Notes under the pieces: model-generated | What the model was told of the DNA's origin: nothing | The model's input: the letters and a program-made list of their open reading frames with translations, nothing else | Databases searched by the model: none | Origin: Candidatus Cloacimonadota bacterium | GTDB lineage: Bacteria > Cloacimonadota > Cloacimonadia > Cloacimonadales > Cloacimonadaceae | NCBI GenBank assembly: GCA_029561955.1 | Contig: JAKQWO010000027.1 | Coordinates: forward strand, 1 to 64,000 | Reading direction: 5' to 3' | DNA: 64,000 nt | Made by a program: the position numbers and the translations under genes | In this document: one piece after another, positions 590 to 19,003 of the stretch | How the letters are laid out: each line of letters begins with the position of its first letter | Numbering within the stretch: position 1 is the first letter of the stretch

Positions 590-1306
590 CTAATAGTCCC
601 ATTCCTCATAGCTGAGCGGCAGCTCATTCAATAACTGCCTTCTGTACCTCCAGTTTGGCAAGAACTTATCCATCAATGCCACAAATCTATCGTTGTGATG
701 CCTCTCAAGTAAATGCACCAATTCGTGGACAATGATGTATTCAAGGCATTCCTCAGGTTTTTTTGCGAGCTCCAGATTGATCCAGATTCTTCTTGCATAC
801 GTGTTGCAGGAGCCCCATTTGGTTTTCATCTTTCTTACGTCCCAGCCATTAACATGTACGCCGATTACTCCTTGCCACTTGCTGATAAGAGGCTCTATTC
901 TGGCTTTGAGTCTGGCTCTATACCATTCTTGCATCATCAAAGCGCGATGAGATACGGTTGTCCCCGGCTTCTCGTAGAGATCAATGTATTTCTTCCCTCT
1001 TATCTTAATCTGATTTATGCTTGCATTAGGTATCACATTTAAGAGATAGCGTCGCCCTTCCAAATAGTGGCTTTCGCCGCTGACATACTCTCTTTTTGGA
1101 AGTCTTTCAGCTTGCTCAAACTTGGTAATCTGTTTCTTTATCCAGCTCAGTTTGGATACAATATGCAGACGGATAGTCTCATCATCAAGATGCTTGGGTA
1201 CGGCAATTCTTATTCTGCCATTGGGGGGATAAACCGCCAGATGAAGATTCTTGATATCCTTTTTGACGACGTCTATAATGTGTTCGCCAACTGAAATCTG
1301 ATACAT
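590..1306 (-). CDS. YgjP-like zinc metallopeptidase (DUF45/WLM type)
   Basis: The 238-residue protein has the family hallmark WGSC (around residue 165) followed by the zinc site HELVH (194-198) and a nearby HH pair, as in YgjP/DUF45 gluzincin-like peptidases. These are presumed soluble zinc proteases with unknown substrates. It begins one base after the hsdR stop and is on the same strand, so it is very probably the last gene of the hsdM-hsdS-hsdR operon. YgjP-like genes are often seen behind type I restriction systems, but no mechanism is established. A protease here could act on HsdR to limit restriction of the host chromosome, as ClpXP does in E. coli; that is inference. Confidence 0.85.
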   Translation of the reverse strand: MYQISVGEHIIDVVKKDIKNLHLAVYPPNGRIRIAVPKHLDDETIRLHIVSKLSWIKKQITKFEQAERLPKREYVSGESHYLEGRRYLLNVIPNASINQIKIRGKKYIDLYEKPGTTVSHRALMMQEWYRARLKARIEPLISKWQGVIGVHVNGWDVRKMKTKWGSCNTYARRIWINLELAKKPEECLEYIIVHELVHLLERHHNDRFVALMDKFLPNWRYRRQLLNELPLSYEEWDY

Positions 1307-1307
1307 G

Positions 1308-4300
1308 TTAATACTCCGCTTGGTTCTTCACGATATCAAAGATGCGCTCCACCTCACTCAAGCTGTCTGCAATGGTGTTTTTCATCACGTTGTAAATTGC
1401 TTCCTTTATTTGTCGTTCCTTGGTTAAATTGCCACGCCATTCATCTTTTTTGGTTCTAGTGATTGCATCATGCAGGGTCAAAGCCAGCTCTTCATTGCTG
1501 TGGAGGTTGTCATAAAGTGCACGTTTGGCCTTTGTGTTCAGGTTGGGCGTATAGCGGTCGGTAGTTTCCGGTTTGCGAACCTTTATCATCAGATCAGTGA
1601 TGCGTTTCAAATATTCTTCATAACATATGGCAAGATCTTTTCTCAACTTGATTATCTCAGCAAGAAGCTTGGACATCTGCTCATAATAAATAGGGTTTTG
1701 TGGAGTTTCGTCAACGATCACCTTGCGGACGTTGTTTTCCATGGTGCCTGCAATGAGTTCTTTGTCTTCTTTGATGGTCTCCGGCAGCTCTTCGATTGCC
1801 TCTACGGGACCCTTTTGAATAAACAAGTCCACCAGTCCCAAGTCATCAAAAGCAGAGATCTTTTTAGGGTCCTCAGCCTCAATATAGTTGTCTATTAGAT
1901 GGCGCATAGCGGGTTCATACATCTTGAGGTCTATGTAGTCACCGCTGGCAAGTTTGATTACCTTTCTTAAGTTTTCATAACGAGCTACCTCTTTAGCTAT
2001 ATGATCAGCTTCCTCTTTAGTGAATCCTGCCTCTTCCATTTCGTTGGCAATCTCAACATAAACCCGTAATAGGGAGGCTGTAGTTTTGTATAACAGCAAT
2101 CTTTTTGGCTCGTTATCGACAAGGTCTTGTTCGTTATCAGTATCACCACAGAAATAGCGGACATAGTCAATCTCTTCTTGTGGGGGTTGAACCGGTTCAC
2201 ACAAAGCCCTTATACCTTCCAGCATTTCTTCAAGCCGTTCTTTCGCCTTTGTGAGCCTGTCGCTCAACAGACCTATCACATCCTTCTCATCATAACCGTC
2301 AAAGGCTCCTGATGTATAGTCTGTTACGGCCTTTTCCAAGTTAAAAAACAGGTCTTTATAGTCTACAATAAAGCCAAAGTTCTTGTCTTCTCCGTCAATA
2401 CGATTAACTCTGCAAATTGCTTGAAACAAGCCATGATCCCTCATAAACTTGTCTATGTAAAGATAGGTGGCACTGGGGGCATCGAAGCCGGTTAATAGTT
2501 TGTCTACCACAATGAGGAGCTTCATCTTTTCGGGCTCTTCTACAAAGCGCTTTTTCACCTCATCTTCAAATGCTTCCACATATCTGCCTGCCAACATCTT
2601 TCTGTAAACCCTATCTTTTACAATTTCTTCATTAACATAGCCTCTTCCTGAATCCTGAAGCTTGATATTGTTGATATCCGGTTCATATGAGGTTACGATG
2701 GCGCAATTATCAAAACCTGCAGCATTGAAGAGCTCATAAAATCTGCAAGCGTCATAGATAGAACCTGCCACCAGCATGGCATTACCCCTGCCACTGCTCA
2801 GGCGGTCTTTGATTTCCATATCTGAAACGATGTCAGCCACTATTTTTTGTAGCCGGTCTTTAGAACTCAGGACTTTATTTAAGGTAGCCCATCTGCGCTT
2901 GAGGTCTGCTTGTGCCAATTGGCTCAATCCTTTGGTTTTCTTTTGAAAAAACTCGTCAATCTTATCTTCTGAGGTGATGTGCTGGTCTATATCCCTGGCC
3001 TCATAGCTCAAGTCTACAATCACATTGTCGGCAACCGCTTCGTCAAACTTGTAAGTGTCTATATACTTGCCAAACACTTCCAAGGTGGTTTTTTTGTCTT
3101 TTCTCATGAGAGGCGTGCCTGTAAATCCTATGAATAGAGCGTCAGGCAGTATTGCTTTCATGGCTTTGTGCAATTCGCCGGATTGGGTTCGATGGCATTC
3201 GTCCACAAAGACGTGGATGTTGCCCTTTGCTTCAAATCCGGATTGCGCACTGCTGCGTAGGTCATCGATGTAAGAGAGCCAGCCGTCTTCATCTTTGTTT
3301 CTAAACTTGTGGATCAGGGAGCATATCAGCCAATCCTCACTTGAGTTGAGCCTACTGATTAAATCAGCACCGCTACTGGTGCGAACGATTTTTTCATCTA
3401 CTCCCCTAAAGACCATCTCAATTTGTTTGTCCAGCTCATCCCGATCCGTGATAATCAAAACCCTGGAATCTGTAATATTTTCTCTGATCCATTTGGCCAA
3501 CCAAACCATGATCAGGCTCTTACCGCTGCCCTGTGTGTGCCAGATGATGCCACCTTCACGCTTTAGGATGCTCTCTTGAGCTGCCTTGACTGCGTTGTAC
3601 TGATTGTGCCGGCAGAGCTTTTTGATCCCTGAATCATAAACCACAAAGTCGTGGATAAGTTCCAAAAAGCGGTCTTTGGCAAACAAAGCTGAGATGTGAT
3701 TATCTAAGGAGGACTCCGCTTCGCCTCTTTCTTTCCATTTCAGATAATACTCCTCTTTGGTTTCTATCGTGCCATAGCGTAAGCCTTGGCTATCATTACC
3801 TGCAATTACAAACTGAATGGTAGAGAAAAATAGCCTGATAAATTCTGGCTTTTGGCTGTCGATATTCTGTCTGATTCCCTCTGATAGTGATACCGTGCTA
3901 CGCTTTAATTCAATCACAGCAAGGGCGATTCCGTTTACATATATCACAAGGTCCGGACGCTTGTTGTTGACACCGATTACAGAGACTTCTTCGGCAACAG
4001 CAAAGTGGTTTGCCTCGGGATTCTTCCAGTCAACAAGATGCACCGTTACATTGTTTTCACTCACATCGGGCTGGACCTTGATTCCATAGCGCAATAGTGC
4101 GTAAACTTCCTTGTTCACGTCATACAGGCTTTTGGTTTGGTTGCTGGCAATCTGGTTTAGTTCAAATATGGCCTTATTTATAATCCCTTCAGAGTAACCA
4201 CTTTGGACTAAAAATTCACGAAGATAGATCTCCTCGATTGCCTGATTGTTTTCTCTGTGGTGCCAATCACCCAGAAAATCGTAATGAAGCCGATCCTCAA

Positions 4301-4355
4301 ACAGCCTTATTATCCTTTCCTGTGTCTTTCTTTCCGCTTGTCCTATTTGGCTCAT
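1308..4355 (-). CDS. hsdR: type I restriction enzyme, motor/endonuclease subunit HsdR
   Basis: This is the ATP-dependent translocase and endonuclease of a type I restriction complex (R2M2S). The N-terminal nuclease domain keeps the PD-(D/E)xK residues: D135 in RPDLVIYV, then E149 and K151 in VIELKRS. Walker A is QGSGKS (275-280), the DEAD-type box is DECH (385-388), and FTGTP follows as helicase motif III. The length of 1015 residues is normal for the family. The start ATG overlaps the hsdS stop (ATGA type), so translation is probably coupled. No inactivating lesion is visible. Confidence 0.96.
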   Translation of the reverse strand: MSQIGQAERKTQERIIRLFEDRLHYDFLGDWHHRENNQAIEEIYLREFLVQSGYSEGIINKAIFELNQIASNQTKSLYDVNKEVYALLRYGIKVQPDVSENNVTVHLVDWKNPEANHFAVAEEVSVIGVNNKRPDLVIYVNGIALAVIELKRSTVSLSEGIRQNIDSQKPEFIRLFFSTIQFVIAGNDSQGLRYGTIETKEEYYLKWKERGEAESSLDNHISALFAKDRFLELIHDFVVYDSGIKKLCRHNQYNAVKAAQESILKREGGIIWHTQGSGKSLIMVWLAKWIRENITDSRVLIITDRDELDKQIEMVFRGVDEKIVRTSSGADLISRLNSSEDWLICSLIHKFRNKDEDGWLSYIDDLRSSAQSGFEAKGNIHVFVDECHRTQSGELHKAMKAILPDALFIGFTGTPLMRKDKKTTLEVFGKYIDTYKFDEAVADNVIVDLSYEARDIDQHITSEDKIDEFFQKKTKGLSQLAQADLKRRWATLNKVLSSKDRLQKIVADIVSDMEIKDRLSSGRGNAMLVAGSIYDACRFYELFNAAGFDNCAIVTSYEPDINNIKLQDSGRGYVNEEIVKDRVYRKMLAGRYVEAFEDEVKKRFVEEPEKMKLLIVVDKLLTGFDAPSATYLYIDKFMRDHGLFQAICRVNRIDGEDKNFGFIVDYKDLFFNLEKAVTDYTSGAFDGYDEKDVIGLLSDRLTKAKERLEEMLEGIRALCEPVQPPQEEIDYVRYFCGDTDNEQDLVDNEPKRLLLYKTTASLLRVYVEIANEMEEAGFTKEEADHIAKEVARYENLRKVIKLASGDYIDLKMYEPAMRHLIDNYIEAEDPKKISAFDDLGLVDLFIQKGPVEAIEELPETIKEDKELIAGTMENNVRKVIVDETPQNPIYYEQMSKLLAEIIKLRKDLAICYEEYLKRITDLMIKVRKPETTDRYTPNLNTKAKRALYDNLHSNEELALTLHDAITRTKKDEWRGNLTKERQIKEAIYNVMKNTIADSLSEVERIFDIVKNQAEY

Positions 4356-5533
4356 AATAATCTTATCCTCCCGGTCAAGAGCTCTTGCATCATTGCTTTT
4401 TTGAGCAATGCATATTTACGCAATTGTTTTTCAAGAGAACGAATCTCGCAATCAGTTGTCCCAATAATGGTAGAGATAGCTACTTGCTCACTTAGATCAG
4501 GGAGCTCAATGATGATGTTTTTGATGTCCCCGCCTTGTAAGTGATAGATGGTTATTCCCTTGGTTTCCCTTGCTATTTCTTTTCGCCTTACGACGTTTAG
4601 ATACATCGCCAAAAAAGCTGAGTCCAATTCCCGCTTGGGGCGCAGAATGTTGATGTCACCTCCCAAGCTAACGTTATCTTGCAGAAGTGCTGATGCTTTT
4701 GCCAAGTCAACTCCCGTTGTGGTTGTTGAACCGGGTAAAAGAATGTCTCCCGCCCTTGAATCCACTCCCCTGTGGCTATTTGTTGAGCTATAAACAACGT
4801 CAATAACATCATTATATGTGGTGAAAAGCTCTCCGTAGAGAATACAGCTATTTGCCCCATCGGGGGTCAAGTGAGCTTTAGATAGCCCACTACCCCTTAG
4901 AACAGTAAAACATTCATCAATGGTTGTCTTTACCCATTCTCCATTGAAGCCAGAAAGACGTCTTTCCCCAGTCAGCATTTCCTGCATCATACCCTGCTTG
5001 ATGAGCTTCTTCTTCTCAATTAGTTTTTCAAGTGATGTGATCAGGTCGTTGATACCAGATATAACCTCAGCGATCGCTTTTTGTTCTCTTATGGGTGGTA
5101 AAGCGATAGGCATATTTGTTATCATTTTCAACCTTACAGAGTCTACTGATGTTTTAGCGGTGAATTGCATAATCCTTGCGTAAAAGCGGCTTTGGAAGAA
5201 CAAAAAGAAGTAATATCCATCAATTGCTTGAGAAAAATTGCTTAGGCAATATACTCTTTGATGATAGTCAAACCGACCGTTGATATAGTGAAAGACTTTC
5301 CCTGTACCAACTCCATCTCCAGCCGTCAAAACAGCTTCTCCATCAAATGAATAGCTGTTAATACGCTCTACTTCTTTTGATCTGACAAAGAAAGGGTATA
5401 ATCCATTAATTACGTTATCCTGAGTATTTCTCTTCCCAGTGGTGATCGAGCAATGATTACTCACATAATCTACACCCCAGTCTTCGGGTATGACGCCAAT
5501 TTCAGTCAGATTGTATCCGGGTTTTACTTCCAT
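4352..5533 (-). CDS. hsdS: type I restriction-modification specificity subunit HsdS
   Basis: HsdS reads the bipartite DNA target for both methylation and cleavage. The 393-residue protein has two target-recognition halves, each ending in a conserved helix: one near residues 145-185 (LPPIREQKAIAEVI, then a LIKQGMMQEMLTGERRL end) and one at the C-terminus (LPDLSEQVAISTII, then KKAMMQELLTGRIRLL). The repeated MMQE(M/L)LTG phrase marks the internal duplication. It overlaps the hsdM end by 10 bases and the hsdR start by 4. The recognition sequence cannot be read from the protein. The half-genes are places where such systems recombine, but no silent second hsdS is seen in this window. Confidence 0.95.
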   Translation of the reverse strand: MEVKPGYNLTEIGVIPEDWGVDYVSNHCSITTGKRNTQDNVINGLYPFFVRSKEVERINSYSFDGEAVLTAGDGVGTGKVFHYINGRFDYHQRVYCLSNFSQAIDGYYFFLFFQSRFYARIMQFTAKTSVDSVRLKMITNMPIALPPIREQKAIAEVISGINDLITSLEKLIEKKKLIKQGMMQEMLTGERRLSGFNGEWVKTTIDECFTVLRGSGLSKAHLTPDGANSCILYGELFTTYNDVIDVVYSSTNSHRGVDSRAGDILLPGSTTTTGVDLAKASALLQDNVSLGGDINILRPKRELDSAFLAMYLNVVRRKEIARETKGITIYHLQGGDIKNIIIELPDLSEQVAISTIIGTTDCEIRSLEKQLRKYALLKKAMMQELLTGRIRLL

Positions 5534-7905
5534 TGGAACCCCATTTGTCTGAGGTGTTCTTCCACCTTTTCGCTTCGCTCTTTTACCTCCCGTTCTATCT
5601 CAGGCAGAGGTTGTGCATAACGCTCTACCAACTCTTGCAAGCGAGAGCTGAAGCGATACGATATCTGGTCAATGATGCTGTTAAGCTCTGTTTGTAGGCT
5701 TATCATCCATTTGTCGTCCACCATTAAGGACTTAATCATATCCTCAGTAAGTTGGGCACGCCTTTGGGCCACACGTTCATCCCTTTCTTTTTCCAGTTTG
5801 CTTTGTAACTTCTTAAGAGCGGAATCCTGATCTTGGAGACGCTTCAATTCGGCGAGTAGTGCCATTTCTTCAGAATTATCGGGATAATTTTGGATTGCTT
5901 TGATACGATCCTTGACCGAGGTTTTAGTGATATTGCCCTTTTCGTTTTTTACTAACTCCAACAGATCGTCTTCAGGATCTTGTTCTTCTGCCATCTCGTT
6001 TATTATTCGGATGATCTCATCTCTCTGCTCTGTCAGCTTGTCTATCTCATTCTGCAGGTGGTTAAACCATTTTTTCACTATTAGATAATCGTCTGCCACT
6101 TCCTCTTTCCAGCCATCAACACAAATATAATAAACATCATCATGCATGATTTCTCCCCAGTACAGCATCAGCATCTGATAGACGTCGTATTTATCTATCA
6201 GTTGCAAATCTGCGAATGTGCTGAGCAGGGATTCGGAGATTTGGGTGATGATCACATCCGGCTTGTATCCGGGTTCAAGAGCTTTGAGCAGGGTGCAGGT
6301 TTGGGTTTTCCAGTTTTCAAAATGGCCGAGCAAGCTGCTTTTGAAAGCTTCAAACTCATGGTCTTCAAGGATAGTCTTGCGTAACTCCTGGGGTTCTACA
6401 TTGGGCTTCATATAATCGACCTTATCGAAGCCGGAGAATAATTTCGTCTTCAGGGATGGCATCACGCTCCAGTAGTCATCAAACCGGTGTATATCCCGAC
6501 CGGGAATGCCACCGGACAGATGGGCTTGGATGTCCTGCAATTCTTCGGGTTCGATGATGTCTATATAACGAGGGATATTGAGGTTAAAATCGTTTCTCTC
6601 AATCTCTTCATAGGATACGAGACGTGAAAACTTTTCCAGTTCAAGTTCGCGGGTAAAGACGTTAACTATCTTGTGTATATCTCTTTCTCTGAGGCGGTTT
6701 TTGTTGCCGTCTTTAACAAAGCCTTTGCTGGCGTCGATGATGAAGATGGCCTTACGATTAGCTGCATTTTCTTTGTCGATTACGATGATACTGGCTGGGA
6801 TGCCTGTGCCGTAGAATAGGTTGGCCGGTAGACCGATTATGCCTTTGATGTAACCGCGTTTGATGAGGTTTTGGCGGATCTCAGCCTCATCACCACCCCG
6901 GAACAGCACTCCATGGGGAAGTATTATAGCGCCCTTGCCCTTGCTTTTCAAGCTTTTAACGAGATGCAGCAGAAAGGCGTAATCGCCATATGAGTTCGGT
7001 GGTATTCCAAAGCCATCGAAGCGTTGATAGACATCATTGTTGGGGGTAAATCCACTCTTCCAATTCTTCATGGAAAAAGGAGGATTGGAGACAGCGAAGT
7101 CAAACCTCTTAAGACTGCCGTCTGCCTCCTTGAAGTAGGGGTCTGCAAGAGTGTTACCGTTCCGAATATCTGCTGTAGGAATACCGTGCAGGATCATGTT
7201 CATCTTAGCGAGGCCGGCCATGGAGTTGTCTATCTCTTGCCCAAAAACGCTGAGCTCAAGCTCGGATTCTGAATCTGCTTTGATGAGTAATGAACCGGAG
7301 CCGCAGGTGGGGTCATAGACCGTTTGGCTGGAGCTTGTAGCTTTGCTTACTCCAATCACCTTGCTCATCACCCTTGAGACTTCTGCGGGGGTGTAGAATT
7401 GACCTTTGCTTTTGCCGGACTGGACGGCAAAGTTCTTCATCAGATATTCATAAGCGTCGCCGAGCAGGTCATCACCCTCAGCTCTATTCCTACTGAAATC
7501 GAGATCTGGTTTTTCGAAGATGGCTATCAGTTCAGTGAGACGGTCAACCATATCTTTACCCTTGCCCAACAGATTGCTGTCATTGAAGTCTGCAACATCG
7601 ATCACGCCTTTGAGATTATTGGCCTCTGCCAGGCGGAGGATGATCTTGTTCATCTGATCTCCAATCTCCGCTTTGCCTTTCCAAAAACGCATATCATCGA
7701 AGCTGCCGCCTTTGCCAGGTTCATCATCTTTAGGTATGCTTATCACAGAAAATGGTGACGAATCTTTGCCGTATTTATCGGAAACGTATTTTACAAATAG
7801 CAGGACAAGGACGTAATTCTTGTATTGAGAGGCATCCATGCCTCCCCGAAGTTCATCGCATGCTTTCCAAATTGAGCTGTAAAGTTCGCTCTTTTTTAGT
7901 GCCAT
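5524..7905 (-). CDS. hsdM: type I restriction-modification methyltransferase subunit HsdM
   Basis: This is the N6-adenine methyltransferase subunit. The AdoMet site is DPTCGSG (198-204) and the catalytic motif is NPPF (274-277). An HsdM N-terminal helical domain precedes them (LYSSIWKACDELRGGM...). At 793 residues it is much longer than the usual ~500. The extra C-terminal ~280 residues are rich in charged heptad-like stretches (around 640-730 and 740-793) that look like coiled coil. It is the first gene of the hsdM-hsdS-hsdR-peptidase operon, with a CAGGAG ribosome site and a likely sigma-70 promoter upstream. Confidence 0.95.
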   Translation of the reverse strand: MALKKSELYSSIWKACDELRGGMDASQYKNYVLVLLFVKYVSDKYGKDSSPFSVISIPKDDEPGKGGSFDDMRFWKGKAEIGDQMNKIILRLAEANNLKGVIDVADFNDSNLLGKGKDMVDRLTELIAIFEKPDLDFSRNRAEGDDLLGDAYEYLMKNFAVQSGKSKGQFYTPAEVSRVMSKVIGVSKATSSSQTVYDPTCGSGSLLIKADSESELELSVFGQEIDNSMAGLAKMNMILHGIPTADIRNGNTLADPYFKEADGSLKRFDFAVSNPPFSMKNWKSGFTPNNDVYQRFDGFGIPPNSYGDYAFLLHLVKSLKSKGKGAIILPHGVLFRGGDEAEIRQNLIKRGYIKGIIGLPANLFYGTGIPASIIVIDKENAANRKAIFIIDASKGFVKDGNKNRLRERDIHKIVNVFTRELELEKFSRLVSYEEIERNDFNLNIPRYIDIIEPEELQDIQAHLSGGIPGRDIHRFDDYWSVMPSLKTKLFSGFDKVDYMKPNVEPQELRKTILEDHEFEAFKSSLLGHFENWKTQTCTLLKALEPGYKPDVIITQISESLLSTFADLQLIDKYDVYQMLMLYWGEIMHDDVYYICVDGWKEEVADDYLIVKKWFNHLQNEIDKLTEQRDEIIRIINEMAEEQDPEDDLLELVKNEKGNITKTSVKDRIKAIQNYPDNSEEMALLAELKRLQDQDSALKKLQSKLEKERDERVAQRRAQLTEDMIKSLMVDDKWMISLQTELNSIIDQISYRFSSRLQELVERYAQPLPEIEREVKERSEKVEEHLRQMGFQWK

Positions 7906-7961
7906 CTATGGTCTCCTGTCGGTTTCTAATTCTACCATCAAGCGGTTTTCACGATGAGGGC

Positions 7962-7990
7962 ATACAACGCGGAGTGGGGATTGTTGTCAA
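7962..7990 (-). promoter_or_regulatory. likely sigma-70 promoter of the hsd operon
   Basis: Read on the minus strand, a perfect TTGACA (7985-7990) is followed after 17 bases by TTGTAT (7962-7967). This would start transcription about 50 bases ahead of the hsdM ATG. The -10 match is only partial (3 of 6). Confidence 0.45.
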
Positions 7991-8221
7991 GGGAAAAGTA
8001 AGAGGCTTTGAATAGTTTAGAAATTGAAGCTAACTGGGTATACAAGCAATCTATATCTAGCTGAGAGACGTTGTTGGTAGTCTAAAGGGAGGGGAAATAT
8101 GTCAAAGACCTCGTTCAACAGATTGTATATGATCACGTAGAATTCCAGTCCCGGACGAATTCTATCAGTGGTGCAGTATTGTATGCTAAGGTTACAAAGT
8201 TTCACCGGAGCAGGATGGCTA
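7991..8221. other. gap with no recognisable gene
   Basis: About 230 bases lie between the hsd promoter and the end of the protease gene. A 62-codon minus-strand frame lies here, but it has no family signature and no clear ribosome site. I see no RNA gene, terminator or repeat of the types found elsewhere in the window. Confidence 0.4.
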
Positions 8222-9076
8222 CTACCGTTTTATTCTACTTTCGTATTTTTTAAATACCTCATCACGTAATACATTCAGCTCTTTGGCTTTGATGTAATAA
8301 CCCAGATTCAAGTATTCATCACTTGAGGCAGTTTCACTATTAGTAGAGCTCTTGTGTAGGCTAGATTTTGGTACTTTAGTAAATATCTCACCTTCGTCAT
8401 TTGCGCATAATAGTGCAAAGAATATGCCCAGTAACTTAGGCTCATTATATCCAATTTTGACACCCTCTTTTTTGGAATATTTCGTGATTCCGGGATAAAT
8501 GAATAGAGGGGAGCCTGAAGAGCCATAATAACAACTCATATCTATCATTCCGATGCTTTTTCCATTAAAGTCAATTGCGGGGTGAGTAGCTGTGCTTCCC
8601 TTCCGAACAATTGGAAGAAAATGCTTTTTGTCAATAATCCTATCAGGATAGCCAACCATTATAACATCGTTGACTGTTTGCATATCGTTCAGTTCATCTT
8701 CAGTATACACTGCGTAATCTGGACAGATCTTATAGTATAAACTATACCCTTGTCCTTGAGCTGACTCTACAATCGGTTGTAATAATGTACAGCATAAGTC
8801 TGTCTCACTGTTTGGATGCATAACCCATTCTGATCCATGTGTGATATGAACGATGCTGTCCAACAAATTACCTTTAGCGTCCTTTTGATGCATTGCGAAT
8901 CTAACGGTTGGGTTTGATTCGTAGTTAATGACGTGCTTATTCGTAACTATGACGGGGACATGTAGGTCATCATCTACTGTGAATCCATAAATGAAACCTG
9001 TACCAGCTCCACTATTCAATTCTAACAAGACTGTGTGGAAAAGTATTTTTTCCGTAAAGTAAGTTGGATTAAGCAT
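8222..9076 (-). CDS. trypsin-like serine protease, apparently cytosolic
   Basis: The 284-residue protein has a chymotrypsin-fold triad: H48 in VTNKHVI, D93 in SETDLCC, and the nucleophile S187 in YYGSSGSPLF, preceded by the oxyanion-forming Gly. There is no signal peptide or membrane segment, unlike most bacterial trypsin-like proteases such as DegP, so it should stay in the cytoplasm. There is no PDZ domain. It stands alone, just upstream of the hsd operon on the same strand, with its own AAGGAG ribosome site. Cytosolic trypsin-like proteases do occur as effector or sensor parts of phage-defence systems. That role here is inferred only from location and the missing secretion signal. Confidence 0.85.
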   Translation of the reverse strand: MLNPTYFTEKILFHTVLLELNSGAGTGFIYGFTVDDDLHVPVIVTNKHVINYESNPTVRFAMHQKDAKGNLLDSIVHITHGSEWVMHPNSETDLCCTLLQPIVESAQGQGYSLYYKICPDYAVYTEDELNDMQTVNDVIMVGYPDRIIDKKHFLPIVRKGSTATHPAIDFNGKSIGMIDMSCYYGSSGSPLFIYPGITKYSKKEGVKIGYNEPKLLGIFFALLCANDEGEIFTKVPKSSLHKSSTNSETASSDEYLNLGYYIKAKELNVLRDEVFKKYESRIKR

Positions 9077-9401: not shown

Positions 9402-10262
9402 CTACTTGGTTTTGCTGATCCAGCAGAAGTAAGGGGAGGTTTTCAGGTGTTGGGATACGTAGGTGTTCAGATCGGGGTTGTGCTTTTTGAGGAGTTTACG
9501 GAGGCGGCTGATGCTGGCACAAAGGGCTTGGTAGGGGCGGCGGCTGACGCTGTTGAAGCTGCGCAGTTGGCCATTTGCCTGGCTGCATTCGAGGAGGTAT
9601 TTCTTGAGTTGCTTGAGTTCCGCGTCCATTTCGGCGCAATCCAGCTCGCGGTTTTTGAGTTCGGCTTTGGCGGCGATGAGTTGTTCGATGCGTTTTCTCA
9701 CCTGATCGAGGGTAGTTTCATCGGTCATGATGAGAGGTGTTTCCTGTAGGATGTCACGTTCTTCCGGGGCTTGCTGCATGTGGTCGAAGGGGATGTATTT
9801 TTCGTAACCAATGGTGCCGGAAAGGATTTGGATCAGGGTTTGAGCGGTGAATTCTTCATCCGGATGTTGGGTGAGGAAGCGCAGGGCGCGGGCACCTTCC
9901 AGATGGAAGTGGTTTAGGAGGAAGGAGTCGAGGCCGGCGAGGCCGGCAGTTGTTAGTTGCCAGTTGTTAGTTGTTAGTGCTTCGCAAGCTGCGGAGATGG
10001 GCGACTTCGTCGCAGTTGTGAGTAGTGAGTTGTGAGTTGTGAGTTGCTGCGCAAGTTGTGGAGATGGGCGTGGTTTGTGGTGTTGATGCGTATAAGTATG
10101 GAGTTCTTTTTGAAGCAAGCGGTGCTTGCTTGCGGCGGTTCGGCGACCGCCGGCTACATTGCAGGTGTCAGTTTCCATTTGTAAACGTTGAGAATTCAAG
10201 CGTGAGAAGCATTCAGCATAGTGTTGCAATTGGGTAGCGAAGTCTTTGTGGTTCTGTTTCAT
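9402..10262 (-). CDS. unknown protein with repeat DNA inserted in its frame
   Basis: No family is recognised. The 286-residue frame starts with a GGAGA ribosome site and MKQNHKDFATQLQHYAECF. Residues ~36-110 are translated intergenic repeat (AGGRRTAASKH, then QQLTTHNSLLTT and LTTNNWQLTTAGLAG), matching repeat types A and C found between genes elsewhere. After that the protein is normal-looking and helical: FLLNHFHLEGARALRFL, a LSGTIGYEKYIPFDHM phrase, a charged coiled coil around 185-225, and a basic C-terminus with RRPYQAL and RLRKLLKKH. The stop codon TAG is itself the first base triplet of another type A repeat. The original protein was probably about 210 residues. Whether the present product is functional is unknown. 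Confidence 0.6.
   Translation of the reverse strand: MKQNHKDFATQLQHYAECFSRLNSQRLQMETDTCNVAGGRRTAASKHRLLQKELHTYTHQHHKPRPSPQLAQQLTTHNSLLTTATKSPISAACEALTTNNWQLTTAGLAGLDSFLLNHFHLEGARALRFLTQHPDEEFTAQTLIQILSGTIGYEKYIPFDHMQQAPEERDILQETPLIMTDETTLDQVRKRIEQLIAAKAELKNRELDCAEMDAELKQLKKYLLECSQANGQLRSFNSVSRRPYQALCASISRLRKLLKKHNPDLNTYVSQHLKTSPYFCWISKTK
9945..10156. repeat. repeat cluster (types A and C) inside a coding frame
   Basis: This stretch contains AGTTGTTAGTTGCCAGTTG, GTGAGTTGTGAGTTGTGAG, two copies of a GCGCAAG/GCAAGCTGCGGAGATGGGC phrase, AAGCAAGCGGTGCTTGCTTG and GGCGGTTCGGCGACCGCC. The same units sit in non-coding gaps at 12.1, 33.5, 36.9, 55.5 and 61.5 kb. Here they keep the surrounding minus-strand frame open. 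Confidence 0.8.
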
Positions 10263-10993
10263 TTAGATTGTCTCCGTAATTTTGTATTTGAAGCGGAGAG
10301 GAAGGGGATATTGTATTTAGTGGCAATAAAATATCTGCTTTCCTGTAGCTTCATGGGGACAGGATAGTAGTGTCGCTTATTTTGTCAATAGGAAATATGG
10401 AGCAGTGCTGAAGTTGTGAGTTGTGAGTTGTGAGCTCTGGCGCAGGTTGCATGGATGCGGGTGGTTGTGGCGAAGATCGAGGCTGCGGTGGAGCTTTTTA
10501 GTTTTTCCACGGATGTACACGGATGGGCACGGATGGGTTTTAAGAAAGGCCACAAATGAACATGGGTAACACGTAGCTTTTGGATTGAGCGAAGCCGCTA
10601 ACAACTAACAACTAAGAACTATGAAAAAGGCAGACGCAGTCAGCCTTTTCAGGTATTTAACTACTGACAAGAAAGAGACAATATTTGCCCAATTTTGTTA
10701 CGTTAACTGTGGCAAGAAGTTACGAGATTGGTTTTTCTGATTTTTCGCCATGGGAGCAACATCGTCAGAGTATATTATGAAGGCTTGTTTTTCCTCAAGG
10801 GCATTCCAATTTTAGCAACGCTTACATTTTGGCGGCGACTGGGCGGCTTTGCTTCATTAGTGAGTTGTGAGCAGCCTGTCGACAGGGTGGAGCTGACGGT
10901 TGGCAGTTAATTATGGTGGAGCGGGTGCTGGGTTATGGGCTTTTGGGATGAGCAGCCTATCAAAAAATACGTCATAATTGGAGTGATAGACAA
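10263..10993. repeat. repeat-rich gap upstream of the micro-operon
   Basis: This gap carries type C units (GTTGTGAGTTGTGAGTTGTGAG near 10410, AACTAACAACTAAGAACT near 10600), type B units (CCACGGATGTACACGGATGG near 10504) and a hairpin at 10622-10651. Nothing reads convincingly as a gene. A CATAAT box at about 10973-10978 is a candidate -10 for the operon that starts at 10994, but no good -35 partner is visible. Confidence 0.6.
10622..10651. terminator. terminator-like hairpin
   Basis: The arms GAAAAAGGC-GAC and GTC-GCCTTTTC fold around a GCA loop with short bulges. The A- and T-rich ends would serve as a terminator tail on either strand. No gene of this window ends next to it, so it may be a remnant or part of a repeat. 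Confidence 0.35.
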
Positions 10994-11449
10994 ATGAAAG
11001 TAAAATTCAAGTATGGTATCCGGACCTATTCCGGCACAGTTGATGAGATGACCTATGGCAGCTATCGCAAGGGGAGGCTTTGCATTGGTCGTCAATACGT
11101 GATTCCCAAGGCAACAATCCAAAACGAGAAAATGGGTAACGCAGCCAAGAATCTGGCTCTTCTTTGGAAATCTGCTTCCGATGAGTTCAGAGCAGACTAC
11201 AAGATCTATGCCGGTCTGTATGCGACCTACGTGAGCAAGGCAAACGAGATGCCACCCACCTGCTATGCGCTGTTTACCAAGGCGATGCACAACTGGGCAA
11301 AAGGTGAAGACCCCGCTTTGGATCTGGCCGATGTGCAAGTGGAAGACATCACTACCCTGGGCGCAGGCATCAGCAGCATTGCAAACTGCGTGAACCATAA
11401 CCACCTACCCGCCGTTCCCGGTTACAACAACCTAAACAACAGCTACTAA
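10994..11449 (+). CDS. unknown 151-residue protein, first gene of a micro-operon
   Basis: No family is recognised with confidence. The N-terminal half is basic and aromatic-rich (FKYGIRTYSGTVDEM, then YGSYRKGRLCIGRQYVIP). The middle is helical (NAAKNLALLWKSASDEFRADYK, shortened here), followed by YAGLYATYV. The C-terminus turns acidic and then low-complexity (GYNNLNNSY). There is no signal peptide. The GSYRKGR...R and AAKNLALL pattern loosely recalls small basic proteins of unknown function in Bacteroidota (DUF6266-like), a weak resemblance. A GGAG ribosome site precedes the ATG. It is followed after 18 bases by a 55-codon gene with a very strong ribosome site, then a 24-codon gene and a terminator. 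Repeats flank the unit on both sides. Confidence 0.8.
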   Translation: MKVKFKYGIRTYSGTVDEMTYGSYRKGRLCIGRQYVIPKATIQNEKMGNAAKNLALLWKSASDEFRADYKIYAGLYATYVSKANEMPPTCYALFTKAMHNWAKGEDPALDLADVQVEDITTLGAGISSIANCVNHNHLPAVPGYNNLNNSY

Positions 11450-11467
11450 TCCTAAAAGGAGGGAAAA

Positions 11468-11635
11468 ATGCAGAGCGATGTAATGAAAGCCCTGGCCAAA
11501 GAACTGGCCACCCGTATCAACAGAGTAGTGGATATTCCACTGATCAGCGAAGAGAATGAACAGGCCTTCTTTGAGATGGTCATCCTGATGATCCTGGATC
11601 TGATCTTCTCGAGAATGAGCAAGGAGAGCCTCTAA
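11468..11635 (+). CDS. unknown 55-residue protein, second gene of the micro-operon
   Basis: ATG at 11468 follows an excellent AAAGGAGGG ribosome site by 4-5 bases. The product starts MQSDVMKALAKELATRI and ends in a strongly hydrophobic helix (FFEMVILMILDLIF) before SRMSKESL. The helix contains E and D, so it is more likely an amphipathic or packing helix than a simple membrane anchor, though membrane contact is possible. The stop TAA shares its last A with the ATG of the next small gene, so the two are probably translationally coupled. No family is recognised. Confidence 0.7.
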   Translation: MQSDVMKALAKELATRINRVVDIPLISEENEQAFFEMVILMILDLIFSRMSKESL

Positions 11636-11709
11636 TGTACTACCTGCAGTTCATCCGGGACTGGCTCTCGAAAGTGCGTAACAAACTGGGCGGTCTCTTC
11701 AGGAGATAA
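11635..11709 (+). CDS. 24-residue cationic amphipathic peptide, third gene of the micro-operon
   Basis: The frame starts inside the stop of the preceding gene (TAATG) and has AAGGAG nine bases upstream, a proper ribosome site. The peptide (YYLQFIRDWLSK, then VRNKLGGLFRR) has six basic and one acidic residue, and its hydrophobic residues are spaced to lie on one face of a helix. This is the profile of a membrane-active or nucleic-acid-binding small peptide. The frame ends 15 bases ahead of a terminator. Because it is so short, coding status rests on the ribosome site, the coupling and the operon position. Confidence 0.55.
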   Translation: MYYLQFIRDWLSKVRNKLGGLFRR

Positions 11710-11723
11710 AGCCTGGGTAAGCC

Positions 11724-11754
11724 AAAAAGCCCTGCCGTGATGGTGGGGCTTTTT
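11724..11754 (+). terminator. rho-independent terminator of the micro-operon
   Basis: AAAAAGCCC pairs with GGGCTTTTT around a partly paired TGCC...GG loop, and the T run completes the signal. It lies directly after the 24-codon gene and closes the three-gene unit. Confidence 0.8.
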
Positions 11755-12105
11755 ATGAGTCGTCAGTCGTCAGTCGTCAGTAGTCAGTCGCTGCGCAAGT
11801 GATTGAGATGCGGATGGTTGCGTTATGGAACGACGCCGCGATTGGGCTTTTTTTGGTTTTCCCACGAATTACACAAATTAAGGGGCCAGCGGGGGCCGGC
11901 TGCGCCGTCCAGTTGTCAGTAGCCAGTGGTCAGTAGTCAGTCGCTGCGCAAGTGATTGAGATGCGGATGGTTGCGGAATGGAACGAGGCCGCGATTGGGC
12001 TTTTTTTGGTTTTCCCACGAATTACACGAATTACACAAATTAAGGGGCCAGCGGGGGCCGGCTGCGCCGTCCAGTTGTCAGTAGCCAGTGGTCAGTAGTC
12101 AGTCG
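11755..12105. repeat. tandemly duplicated composite repeat (about 153 and 162 bp units)
   Basis: Unit 1 begins at 11778 and unit 2 at 11931, each opening with CAGTAGTCAGTCGCTGCGCA, and a third, truncated copy begins at 12093. The units contain type C, type B (CACGAATTACACAAATTAAG) and a GGGGCCAGCGGGGGCCGGC block. They are nearly identical. Unit 2 is longer by a nine-base ACACGAATT step, and there are scattered single-base differences. No gene is present. Confidence 0.85.
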
Positions 12106-12513
12106 CTGCGCTGGCAGTGTAGATGCGGGTGCTCTATGTATGGTCGCTTGCCACAGCTACCTTGTACGGGCGGTCGCCGAACCGCCGTTGTAGGGTCGGT
12201 CGCCGGACCGACCAAATAGGTGTCTGGCAGTGTAGATACGGGTGGTTGTGGTGGAGGTGCGCATGGTTCTGAGGCTCTCATTGTTGCCCACGAATTACAC
12301 GAATTAACACGAATTATGATAAAGGAAGTCCACGGATGGACACGGATGGGTTATATGAAAGTCTGCAAATGTGCATGGGTAAACACATAGTCTTTGGATT
12401 GAGCGAAGCGACTGGCTACTGACGACTGGCTACTGACGACTGCAGCAAAGCTGCCGCGTACTTTTTGGTTGACAATAAAGACAGAGTCAGATTTGGTGGC
12501 TTACAATGGTAAA
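12106..12513. repeat. mosaic of type A, B and C repeats before the ABC exporter
   Basis: It includes GGGCGGTCGCCGAACCGCC and GGTCGGTCGCCGGACCGACC (12163-12214), CACGAATTACACGAATTAAC (12288 on), ACGGATGGACACGGATGG (about 12333 on) and CTGGCTACTGACGACTGGC (about 12411 on). A TTGACA occurs at 12469, but its best downstream TACAAT is 27 bases away, too far for a normal promoter. Confidence 0.7.
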
Positions 12514-14418: not shown

Positions 14419-15465
14419 ATGAAAAAGAGGAAAAGCTTGGTTGCCTCTCTGGTGAAGACGCTCTGCGAGAAGATTCGCACGGTGTATGAGACCCTGAGGA
14501 GTCCGGAAAAGCTGAAGCAGGTGATGCTGAGGATTTGGGATTTTGTCAAGGTGCTATACAAGCGGATCACAAACGATGGAGTGCTCAAGGAATCGGCGTC
14601 GCTCACCTATATCACGCTGCTGGGTTTTGTGCCCTTTATCACCTTTGTGTTTATGATCGTGCCGGATCTGCCTTTCCTCAATGTCAAGGATAAGATTCGG
14701 GAGATATTGGCGGCCAATATGGTGCCCGGCTCTGCTTCGGCGATCATGGGCTATCTGGATGATTTTATCAAGAATCGCACCGCTTTCAATATCATCAGCT
14801 TTGTGATCTTGATCGTGAGCTCGTATTCGCTGTTTCGCAATATCCGCAATGCCTTTGACCGCATCCTGAACGTGAGGATGGCCAATTCTCAAGACCTGAT
14901 CTCGCAGATGATCAAGTATCTGGGAACCTTGATCTTTGGATTTGTCATCATGGTGGTGCTGTTTTCCGCATCCTCGCTGCCGGTGATCGGGCTGATCTTT
15001 AACCTGCCCATCCTCAAGCAGGTCAGCTACGTGTTGCCCTTTGTGGTACAGTTTTTGGGCATCAGCCTGCTCTATAGCCTGATTCCCACGATCAGGGTGG
15101 GGCGCAGGGCGGTAATGCAGGGCGCATTTTGGACGAGCGTGGTCTGGGCTTTGGTCAAAAACCTCTTCGACATCTATATCTACAATCTGACCAGCATCCA
15201 GGCGGTGTATGGCGTGATGGCAGCGTTGCCGATCTTTTTGACGTGGATCTACTTTAACTGGGTGATCATCATGGGCGGCATCGTGCTTGTGAGCGTGTTG
15301 GACAGCAATGGCGAACTGGATGAGATGGAGAAGGAACCGCGGCGCACAGTGCGTTTGACGGTGGAGATGTATAGCGACAATAGTTTGAACCGCAGGTTGG
15401 AAGGCTTGGTGGACAAGCAAGACCTGCTGGAAGTATTAAAAGAAGATTTGGAAAAGGAAGAGTAA
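14419..15465 (+). CDS. YihY/BrkB-family inner-membrane protein
   Basis: The 348-residue protein has about six transmembrane helices and the YihY/BrkB pattern, including SASLTYITLLGFVPFITFVF near residue 60 and LPIFLTWIYFNWVIIMGG near the end. It was once mis-called ribonuclease BN; members are membrane proteins of unclear transport function. It starts two bases after the permease stop and abuts purH, so the four genes from the ATPase to purH may be co-transcribed. The C-terminal ~50 residues are a charged cytoplasmic tail. Confidence 0.88.
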   Translation: MKKRKSLVASLVKTLCEKIRTVYETLRSPEKLKQVMLRIWDFVKVLYKRITNDGVLKESASLTYITLLGFVPFITFVFMIVPDLPFLNVKDKIREILAANMVPGSASAIMGYLDDFIKNRTAFNIISFVILIVSSYSLFRNIRNAFDRILNVRMANSQDLISQMIKYLGTLIFGFVIMVVLFSASSLPVIGLIFNLPILKQVSYVLPFVVQFLGISLLYSLIPTIRVGRRAVMQGAFWTSVVWALVKNLFDIYIYNLTSIQAVYGVMAALPIFLTWIYFNWVIIMGGIVLVSVLDSNGELDEMEKEPRRTVRLTVEMYSDNSLNRRLEGLVDKQDLLEVLKEDLEKEE

Positions 15466-17013
15466 ATGAAGAGATACGCTTTATTCTCGTTGAGTGACAA
15501 GACAAACGTGGAGACCTTGGCGATGGGGCTGGAAAAGCAAGGCTTTACCATCCTGTCCACCTCAAACACGGCCAAGCACCTGAGGCAGTTTTGCAATCAG
15601 GTGGTGGAGGTGTCGGATGTCACCGGTTTTGAAGAGATTCTGGGTGGCAGGGTCAAGACTTTGCATCCGGTGATCCATGCAGGTATTTTGGCAGACAGGG
15701 ACGAGCCGACGCACGTGCAAACCCTGGCTGACAAGGAAATTGGGCAGATTGACGTGGTGGTGGTGAACCTCTATCCTTTTGCGCAGAAGCGAATTGAAAA
15801 CAGGGGAGACCACAACCTGATCATCGAAAACATCGATGTCGGCGGGCCGGCGATGATCCGCGCTGCAGCCAAGAACTATCGCCATGTGTTGGTGCTGGTC
15901 GATCCACTGGATTATCCGCCCACCTTGGAGATGTTGGAAAGCGAGGCGGGCGTGCCGGAGGCTTGGAGATTGTATCTGGCGCACAAGGCTTTTGAGCTGA
16001 CTTCGGCTTACGATTATCAGATCATGGATTACCTCTCCGAACATCATCTGGATACCGCTCCCAGCACCTTCATGCCGCATGGTTTGGATTTGGCTTACAC
16101 GCTGAGCCGGGAGTTGCGCTACGGTGAGAATCCGCATCAAAAAGCCGGACTTTACGTAAACCGCAAAGAGGGCTGGAAATGCCTGCACGGTAAGGAGCTG
16201 TCGCTGAACAACATCCTTGATATCGACTCCTCTCTGAGATTGGTGCGCCTCTTTGAAGAGCCCACGGTGGTGATCACCAAACACAACCAACCCTGCGGTG
16301 TCGGCAGTGACAGCAAGCTGGCGGAGGCATATCGCAAAGCCTTTGCAGCGGATAACATCTCGCCCTTTGGCGGCATCGTGGCGGTGAACCGGACTCTGGA
16401 CTTGGAGACGGCGGTGTGTATCAACAGCATCTTCACCGAGATCATCATTGCGCCGGATTATGAGCCGGGTGTGTTGGAGGTTTTGGTGAAGAAAAAGAAC
16501 CGGCGCTTGATCCAATATGATCCACAACTCTTGGTCAAACCTGCTCACCCATATGAACTTAAGACCTTGTGGTGGGGTATTTTGGCGCAGGAATGGGACA
16601 AGATCGAATCGGATTATTCAAACTGGAAGGTGGTGACACGTGAGAAGCCATCCTCGGATCAGTTTGAAGCGATGATCTGGGGCTGGAAAGTGGTGTCACA
16701 ACTGCGTTCCAATGCAATTGCCCTCACTACCAAGGATCAAACTTTGGGCTTGGGCATGGGGCAGACCAGCCGCGTGGACTCTGCGGAAATCGCCATCTGG
16801 AAGGCGAGGAAGTTTGGGCACGATCTCAGCTCTGCGGTGTGTGCCTCAGATGGTTTCTTCCCCTATCGGGATTCCGTGGACAAGCTGTATCAGGCCGGCG
16901 TGCGGGCAATCATCCAGCCGGGTGGTTCCAAGGCGGATGACGAGATCATCCAAGCCTGCAATGAGCTGGATATAGCGATGGTTTTTACAGGTGTCAGGCA
17001 CTTTAGACACTAA
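15466..17013 (+). CDS. purH: bifunctional AICAR transformylase / IMP cyclohydrolase
   Basis: PurH catalyses the last two steps of purine synthesis: formylation of AICAR by 10-formyl-THF, then ring closure to IMP. The N-terminal MGS-like cyclohydrolase domain (FSLSDKTNVETLAMGLEK..., GGRVKTLHPVIHAGIL) is followed by the transformylase domain with the catalytic KHNQPCGVG motif and SPFGGIVAVN. Length of 515 residues is normal, and the C-terminal GGSKADDEIIQACNELDIAMVFTGVRHFRH (here cited in part) is complete. It starts directly at the end of the YihY gene. No purine riboswitch is seen. Confidence 0.97.
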   Translation: MKRYALFSLSDKTNVETLAMGLEKQGFTILSTSNTAKHLRQFCNQVVEVSDVTGFEEILGGRVKTLHPVIHAGILADRDEPTHVQTLADKEIGQIDVVVVNLYPFAQKRIENRGDHNLIIENIDVGGPAMIRAAAKNYRHVLVLVDPLDYPPTLEMLESEAGVPEAWRLYLAHKAFELTSAYDYQIMDYLSEHHLDTAPSTFMPHGLDLAYTLSRELRYGENPHQKAGLYVNRKEGWKCLHGKELSLNNILDIDSSLRLVRLFEEPTVVITKHNQPCGVGSDSKLAEAYRKAFAADNISPFGGIVAVNRTLDLETAVCINSIFTEIIIAPDYEPGVLEVLVKKKNRRLIQYDPQLLVKPAHPYELKTLWWGILAQEWDKIESDYSNWKVVTREKPSSDQFEAMIWGWKVVSQLRSNAIALTTKDQTLGLGMGQTSRVDSAEIAIWKARKFGHDLSSAVCASDGFFPYRDSVDKLYQAGVRAIIQPGGSKADDEIIQACNELDIAMVFTGVRHFRH

Positions 17014-17019
17014 ATATGT

Positions 17020-17048
17020 TTGACAAAAAGAGCCCCTGCAAATTCATT
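17020..17048 (+). promoter_or_regulatory. possible promoter of the tRNA-Ser gene
   Basis: A perfect TTGACA (17020-17025) is followed after 17 bases by TTCATT, a weak -10. A start point near 17055 would leave a short leader before the tRNA. Confidence 0.35.
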
Positions 17049-17062
17049 GAGCCCACTCCTGC

Positions 17063-17156
17063 GGAGATGTGTCCGAGCTGGCTGAAGGAGCACGATTGGA
17101 AATCGTGTGTATGTGCAAAACGCGTACCCTGGGTTCGAATCCCAGCATCTCCGCCA
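17063..17156 (+). tRNA. tRNA-Ser (anticodon GGA), CCA encoded
   Basis: The acceptor stem GGAGATG (17063-17069) pairs exactly with CATCTCC (17146-17152). The discriminator base is G, as in serine tRNAs, and CCA is encoded at 17154-17156. The anticodon stem CACGATT/AATCGTG holds GGA, the T arm reads CTGGG-TTCGAAT-CCCAG, and the long variable arm (TGTATGTGC...GCGTAC region) is the class II feature of tRNA-Ser. It reads UCC/UCU serine codons. Confidence 0.97.
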
Positions 17157-17259
17157 CTTTTACCCGCTATGAAGGCCATGATATGCAAGGGCAGACGGTG
17201 TTTTTCCACCTTGATGAGTGGAATCCCCATCATTTTAACCGACTTGAGGTAGAATCAAA

Positions 17260-18972
17260 ATGAAGAAAAGCAATAAACCCATCCTGATAGGCTGTTTGGT
17301 GTTTCCTATAGTCCTGATCATCGTCTTTGCGATCAGCTTTAGCCTGAGTTATAAAAAGCTGGATTTGAAGGTGAGTGTGCCCTCCAATGCGTGGTTGGTG
17401 TTGGACCTCTCTGGAGGTGTGCCGGATTATGCAGAATATAGTGCGCCGTCATTTATGGATATAACCTCAAACAGTTGCCGTGAATTGGTGGATAAGATCA
17501 ACGCAGCCGCCAAGGACAAGCGCATCTGCGGCATCCTGATCAAACCGGATGGCGTGCAGATCAATATGGCCAATCTGAACGAAATAGGCGAGGCACTTAA
17601 AGCTTTTAAGCAGAGCAAGAAGCCGGTGCTGGCCTACGGTGAATCCCTGTGGCAAGGCGACTATCTCTTGGCTGCATATGCAGATAGCATCTGGATCAAT
17701 CCTTCGGCATCCGCCGGCATCATGCTGGATGGAGTGAGCGCAAACATCCTCTTTTACAAAGAAGCGCTGCAGAAGCTGGGGATCAAGATGCACGTGATGC
17801 AGGAAGGTGACTTTAAGGGAGCGGGCGAGCCTTTCACCAGAACCGATCTTACTCCCGGCACCAGAGAGAATATCGAAAAGGTGTTGAAAGCACGCTATGA
17901 CATGATCATAGACCGGATTGCAGTGAGCCGGAAGATCGGTCTTGAACAGGTGAAGAACGTCTATGAGGCCAGAGAAGAGCTGTTTATCACGGGTGACAAG
18001 GCGGTCAGTTATGGTTTGGTGGATAAGCTGGGCAGCCTGGACGCCTTTAAACAGCACTATGGCATCACAGAAGATAACGCTTTGAAGATCGGAGACTACA
18101 AGCCCAAGATCAAGCTATCCAAAGCGCAAAACGTGGCCGTGATCAACCTGATCGGCGACATCAATGGAACTGGCGAATACACGCAGAATAGCATCTCTTT
18201 GGCCAAATTGGAGCGGAGTCTCAAGGATTTGGAGGACGACAAGAGCATCAAAGCTGTGGTGCTGAGAGTCAACAGCCCGGGCGGTTCTGCCCTGGAAAGT
18301 GAGCTGATCTATCAGCGGTTGATGGAGCTGAAGAAGAAGTATCCACTGGTGGTTTGGATGGGTGGAACTGCTGCCAGCGGAGGATATTACATCTCCTGTG
18401 CTGCGGATTATATCGTGGCGGATCCAGCTTGCGTGACCGGGTCTATCGGAGTGATCATGGCTGTGCCCGAGACCAAGGGATTGGGCGACAAGCTGGGCTT
18501 AAGCAGCCAGGTATTGCGCTATGGCAAATACGCCGGCGCACTCGAACTTTTTAACACATACCAGCCTTCGGTGCTTGATGCGATCAGGCAAAGCTCGGCG
18601 GCTGTATATACGGAATTTAAACAACGCGTCTCAGACTCCCGCAAGATACCCATGGAAGAGATTCCCGCCCTGGCAGAGGGAAGGATTTTCAGCGCTGAAG
18701 ACGCCCTCAAACTCAAGCTGATAGACGCTATCGGCAGTCAAAATGAAGCCATCAATAAAGCAGCGGCTTTAGCTAAGATAAAAGATTATGGGGTGGTGCA
18801 TTATCCGCATCAAGTGTCCTTTATGGATTTGCTCAAGGGAAGTGGGTTCTTTAAAACCTTGAGCAAAATGGCGGCAGATAGGACCACACCCGAAGAGATG
18901 CTGCAAGAGCAACTGGAAGAGCGCTTCAGCCCCAATGAGTGGCTGTATCGCTGCCCCTGGAATCTGCCTTGA
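17260..18972 (+). CDS. sppA: signal peptide peptidase SppA, long two-domain type
   Basis: SppA is a membrane-anchored serine/lysine protease that degrades cleaved signal peptides. One N-terminal transmembrane helix (residues ~8-30) is followed by two ClpP-like domains. The general base K186 lies in EGDFKGAGEPFTR of the first domain, and the nucleophile S373 lies in TAASGGYY of the second. This split active site is typical of the 67-kDa type (the E. coli protein has 618 residues; this one has 570). The start follows a GAGGTAG ribosome site. RNase E/G follows after about 30 bases, so the two may share a transcript. Confidence 0.96.
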   Translation: MKKSNKPILIGCLVFPIVLIIVFAISFSLSYKKLDLKVSVPSNAWLVLDLSGGVPDYAEYSAPSFMDITSNSCRELVDKINAAAKDKRICGILIKPDGVQINMANLNEIGEALKAFKQSKKPVLAYGESLWQGDYLLAAYADSIWINPSASAGIMLDGVSANILFYKEALQKLGIKMHVMQEGDFKGAGEPFTRTDLTPGTRENIEKVLKARYDMIIDRIAVSRKIGLEQVKNVYEAREELFITGDKAVSYGLVDKLGSLDAFKQHYGITEDNALKIGDYKPKIKLSKAQNVAVINLIGDINGTGEYTQNSISLAKLERSLKDLEDDKSIKAVVLRVNSPGGSALESELIYQRLMELKKKYPLVVWMGGTAASGGYYISCAADYIVADPACVTGSIGVIMAVPETKGLGDKLGLSSQVLRYGKYAGALELFNTYQPSVLDAIRQSSAAVYTEFKQRVSDSRKIPMEEIPALAEGRIFSAEDALKLKLIDAIGSQNEAINKAAALAKIKDYGVVHYPHQVSFMDLLKGSGFFKTLSKMAADRTTPEEMLQEQLEERFSPNEWLYRCPWNLP

Positions 18973-19003
18973 GTTTGGGTAAGACCAATCAACTTTAGGA
19001 ACC

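Follow-up and report, generated by a model that had tools for sequence, protein, structure and literature searches.

The locus lies in a stretch of 64,000 nucleotides (the window) from a genome of Candidatus Cloacimonadota, a 2.1-Mb assembly in 81 contigs. Two small genes, here called A and B, stand close together, with a third gene, D, pointing away from them. The features are as follows.

9402..10262, minus strand: gene D, 286 aa, divergent partner of A and putative regulator
10263..10993, no strand: D/A intergenic region with repeat-like stretches in its sequence; would hold any divergent promoters
10994..11449, plus strand: gene A, 151 aa, of an unnamed Cloacimonadota protein family
11456..11464, plus strand: Shine-Dalgarno site of B, AAAGGAGGG, read from the sequence; comparable sites precede B in most relatives
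11468..11635, plus strand: gene B, 55 aa, predicted helical hairpin; by profile comparison a homologue of a phage lysis-region protein
11635..11709, plus strand: ORF C, 24 codons, overlapping B in TAATG, probably outside the conserved unit
11725..11753, plus strand: terminator-like hairpin with T5 in its 3' arm, from RNA folding
11759..12120, no strand: intergenic repeats at the 3' border of the unit, recurring genome-wide

A sequence-only reading had described a three-gene operon closed by a terminator, bounded on both sides by repeats and with nothing else nearby. The three ORFs (10994-11449, 11468-11635 and 11635-11709) are indeed present, as are the very strong ribosome site of B and the TAATG overlap. 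A terminator-like hairpin stands at 11725-11753; the 56-nt stretch around it (11707-11762) folds with a dG of -20.8 kcal/mol and a z of -2.4. A simple terminator scan did not list the hairpin, probably because its T run sits within the stem. In most relatives a T-run hairpin follows directly 3' of B, although a few loci have no obvious one by eye. The repeats are clear on the 3' side, where CAGTAGTCAGTCGCTGCGC occurs seven times in the window against 0.01 expected, with further copies genome-wide; on the 5' side the interval 10263-10993 carries repeat-like stretches. A promoter scan of that interval gave no sigma-70-like site above chance, and Rfam gave no match for the locus. A DNA match to contig C73 of the same genome was discarded as short, chance-like and within an unrelated ORF.

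Two parts of that description had to be given up. Gene D begins 0.7 kb upstream of A, is divergent from it and recurs at the locus, and the unit comprises two genes and this divergent partner, not three genes in a row. ORF C was dropped as its third member because it has no counterpart after B in any of the relatives examined; it is probably not part of the conserved unit and, seen in one genome only, may be a recent addition. Flanking D, the genes at 590-9076 on the minus strand resemble a type I restriction-modification operon, a YgjP-like gene and a gene for a trypsin-like protein (PF13365 just under cut-off). The genes yihY-purH-sppA-rng stand beside D-A-B both in the window (14419-20521) and, in opposite orientation, at L215 7435-12970 of genome G027, a neighbourhood common to two genera.

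Gene A and the A-B pair across the Cloacimonadota

A-family genes were recovered by protein search from 44 of 61 related genomes and, phylum-wide, from 61 of 115, including all 48 genomes of the window's family with 1-29 copies each; all named relatives are Candidatus Cloacimonadota. No family of Pfam, NCBIfam, PHROGs or PADLOC matched A above cut-off; weak matches such as HMG-box, UBA and TIGR, met in the family searches for the locus, were scattered, below cut-offs and rejected. The A family is absent from the databases searched, yet none of the genomes checked in one bacterial family is without it. AlphaFold2 (pLDDT 82.8) predicts, with fair confidence, strands at residues 13-16, 19-24 and 29-34 followed by helices; residues 1-13 are conserved, yet unplaced in the model. 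Fold searches against viral and PDB libraries gave no significant match. A may resemble DUF6266 (PF19781) in a G-x-x-strand-R pattern and multi-copy occurrence, but this family was rejected, as its Pfam model matched nothing in the window's genome at E <= 10.

No A homologue was found in annotated phages, and the single match of A to a viral contig looks like host DNA flanking a Mu-like prophage. Genes for a Mu-like transposase and repressor lie near A-family genes at L246 12041-16386 (G035) and at L338 4466-9635, an IMG/VR contig in which the A gene resembles a host copy, L084, and is perhaps flanking host DNA.

Of the 30 loci fetched from relatives, 26 have B downstream of A, as do 23 of the 25 loci from named genomes in which A is complete. 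B occurs in 39 of the 48 genomes of the window's family, usually in one copy and in up to three, and most copies without A are near contig ends. Closely related pairs gave dN/dS values of 0.16-0.29 for A and 0.04-0.19 for B, indicating purifying selection on both. To judge by their conservation in frame and order, which goes far beyond chance, A and B evidently form a real operon, and we infer that they act as one functional unit. Their loci occupy differing genomic positions, often beside restriction or defence-like genes.

The bias towards synonymous substitutions that the sequence-only reading had named as support is seen in both genes (dN/dS 0.04-0.29), and the conserved gene order it asked for recurs in dozens of genomes for A-B, with C missing; the 55-codon frame is conserved and the 24-codon frame is not. 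The locus is an undescribed and conserved small system, but not one of three genes, and of its supposedly unrecognised products A has no database family, while B has relatives in phages.

A tree built from 113 A proteins places the A-B type in a 100/100 group (54 rows), where distant rows of other families may be misplaced; the subclades of this group broadly track host genera. A-B-type copies linked to D or to the primase-helicase gene R described below fall within the subclades of their own genus, although some labels in the tree depend on the length of flank fetched. This pattern points to long residence, during which D and R were captured or lost repeatedly. Most A-family copies are without D, R and B, and stand-alone A subfamilies persist across genomes. 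One subfamily, starting MKATVKEG or MKVTVKEG, has a TTAATCAAGCGTTAAT-type palindrome-like stretch upstream in L071, L167 and L181 (three genomes), and L345 1084-2063 holds two tandem divergent A-family genes with MAKVFFAP and MAKIFLAP starts, an N-terminus variant seen once.

Many A-family genes of related genomes are preceded by a pair of TTTGTC-type repeats, spaced at a nearly constant 19-21 nt, and then by a TATA-like stretch (L044, L052, L058, L068, L069, L080, L081, L173, L175, L183, L184, L195 and L201). Genome-wide, all 4 sites of the pattern in G014, all 4 in G019 and 6 of the 7 in G030 stand before A-family genes; G027 has 29 sites, most of them before other genes (one mreB-like) or no obvious gene. 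A reversed-pattern control gave 0-2 sites per genome. Since the repeats come from different loci and genera, they amount to a pattern, not a test. The window copy of A has no such repeat pair, nor has any of the D-linked upstream regions listed.

Divergent partners and primase-helicase genes

Homologues of D lie directly upstream of A and divergent from it in the window, in 7 of the 25 named-genome loci and in further loci, while a few share A's strand. Among the 18 best D matches across the phylum, about 15 adjoin an A-family gene by coordinate comparison. This count leans towards A, as several of the matched sequences had gone into the search alignment after being found close to A in the first place; D-like genes with lower scores often lie away from A. 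D belongs to no Pfam family. A tblastn lead to Streptomyces and Nonomuraea (E 0.006-0.04) found support in profile comparisons, where the C-terminal domain of an actinobacterial AAA/TPR protein and a similar ORF scored 41-55 bits, and from this domain homology and the divergent layout we regard D as a putative regulator.

In the middle of the window's D an intergenic repeat is read through in frame (QLTTHNSLLTTA, NNWQLTTA), while the start and C-terminal domain of this D match a D of the same genus in G003. Peptide repeats of the GVQPNAPT type occur at L079 6663-7217, in a REP-associated-transposase-like gene, and at L215 4176-4664 and 2743-4179, in primase-helicase genes of G027, as if an intergenic repeat had entered coding frames.

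Inspection of the D loci revealed primase-helicase genes (R) beyond D. PriCT_2 (PF08707) is found at 19 places in the window's family, 15 of them no more than 5 kb from an A or B gene, where about 4% would be expected by chance (a hand estimate from roughly nine A genes per 2.3 Mb, for a link noticed before it was counted). Seventeen of the 19 lie within 11 kb of A or B, many divergent from A. The domain sets of R are BT4734-like_N, PriCT_2 and DUF3987, split forms with D5_N/DUF5906, or Prim-Pol and PriCT_2 with DUF3987. Primases of the PriCT_2 type are nearly exclusive to integrated mobile elements, cryptic ones included (Kazlauskas 2018, PMC5862659), and DUF3987/DUF5906 primases serve to detect PICMI satellites, which use them (PMC10803314). 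PriCT_2 is missing from the window's genome, and inspection by eye showed no recognisable integrase among the translated neighbours of the fuller R-D-A-B units.

Relatives of gene B in uncultured phages

AlphaFold2 models B as a helical hairpin (pLDDT 82), for which a fold search of the viral library gave no significant match. Searching IMG/VR with the B alignment gave 432 matching stretches, of which 248 were confirmed; the best 80 of these 248 (L258-L337) were studied. All 80 hold a B-like ORF, with hmm E-values down to about 1e-16, and the phage proteins have a near-invariant IDIPFVSEEKEQ core. Profile comparison with B gave an hhalign E of 1.5e-15 and 50% identity over 42 columns, by which measure B and the phage protein are homologues. 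Annotated phage records contained no match to B, though it is abundant in IMG/VR.

A small protein with a hydrophobic stretch is encoded upstream of the phage B in all 36 loci checked, namely those in which the gene caller placed B and upstream sequence existed. Downstream, an endolysin lies within 1.5 kb in 43 of the 80 loci (40 M15C and 3 GH108, types checked against PDB sequences), and in 20 of these 43 the gap from the end of B to the start of the profile match is 0-2 bases. In 33 phage loci with enough sequence neither M15C nor GH108 was found within 1.5 kb, and other loci have a tail-like or basic protein next to B. The membrane-type proteins and endolysins make it fair to place the phage relatives in a lysis region, whereas the label lysis protein would go further. 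This ties B to a lysis-region gene of phages that is itself uncharacterised, and the phage relatives offer a first handle on the function of B.

Interpretation and comparison with known systems

We posit that the locus is a fragment of a cassette derived from a mobile element, retained by the host and typical of one Cloacimonadota family, a reading to which, taken whole, we give about an even chance. The fuller form would have two divergent arms, with R and/or D on one side and A, often followed by B, on the other. R would be a primase-helicase (BT4734-like primase, PriCT_2 and DUF3987 or D5 helicase); it is absent here, where D and A-B would be what is left. Judging from layout and domain homology, D may control the divergent promoters, and A and B may be translated from one mRNA ending at the hairpin, as read from the sequence. 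The weakest step is that B, together with A, may provide the element's late function at the envelope, either setting the timing of lysis or interfering with lysis by a helper or incoming phage. Such an envelope or lysis role of A and B is something we infer, and the lysis step by itself we hold to be much less probable than the whole. Distinctly unlikely, in our estimate, is the more specific account of a minimal integrated element or domesticated cassette in which A and B form an envelope unit that controls or sabotages phage lysis and the dispersed A paralogues share promoters.

The conservation of A-B, the recurrence of D, the linkage to primases, the phage homology of B and an A tree that broadly tracks genera speak for an origin in an element. 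Against it stand the window without a primase, the lack of a recognised integrase, an A without a phage homologue, the many A copies without D, R and B and the 33 phage loci without an endolysin of the two types nearby; B alone is no proof of lysis. Kept family-wide and under purifying selection, A-B seems by now to serve the host. The pair may show how bacteria keep pieces of parasitic elements, and the links of A to mobile-element primases and of B to a phage gene make both genes testable.

The strongest rival reading is an ordinary pair of host proteins, for instance a small cytosolic or envelope assembly, beside which elements inserted or of which they captured copies. The presence of A genes in 48 of 48 family genomes, the broadly vertical A-B tree, the promoter-like signature common to A-family genes of related genera and the stand-alone A subfamilies kept across genomes would all suit such a pair, but the recurrent close linkage to element-type primases, the homologues of B in phages and the differing positions of the loci, often near restriction or defence-like genes, make it rather unlikely. 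We consider improbable an anti-phage module in which A-B, with D, interferes with or senses phage lysis through a copied lysis-region protein. B is related to such a protein, the window copy adjoins the type I restriction operon and the trypsin-like protein, and other copies lie near methylase/restriction or CRISPR-like genes, named by eye; however, PADLOC models gave only weak partial matches (E 0.02 or worse), defence and mobile elements occupy the same sites anyway, and the neighbourhood was assessed by inspection. A toxin-antitoxin or toxin-antidote operon (A the toxin and B the antidote, or the reverse), of the kind that the sequence-only reading gave as one example and in keeping with two small co-directional genes of net charge +4 (A) and -3 (B) in the window, is very improbable because A genes without B greatly outnumber A-B pairs (up to 29 A against usually one B per genome), and moreover the charge contrast is missing in pair L043 and no toxin or antitoxin family of Pfam, NCBIfam or PADLOC scored above cut-off.

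The preferred reading, a retained element fragment, can be set beside several known systems. The unnamed small protein of phage lysis regions (L258-L337) has the same two-helix core as B, but also an extra N-terminal part and no adjacent A; it adjoins membrane-type proteins and often endolysins, whereas the neighbours of B in the window are A and intergenic repeats. D is related to the C-terminal domain of actinobacterial AAA/TPR (STAND-like) regulators, with an alignment over about 100-160 residues, but has no ATPase and TPR parts. Bacteroidota loci with VirE, HU and small proteins may be a further parallel, of which our literature search found no direct description. Integrated elements with BT4734-like / PriCT_2 primases have the domain set seen in R of the related loci, although A, B and D are undescribed among the elements of PMC5862659 and element ends were not found at the present loci. 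Compared with PICMI/PICI satellites, no integrase or AlpA was recognised here, no helper phage is known, the window copy is without a primase and A is dispersed in up to 29 copies; what the related loci share with these satellites is a compact unit in which a primase of the DUF3987/DUF5906 type stands with a regulator-like gene and small genes of unknown function.
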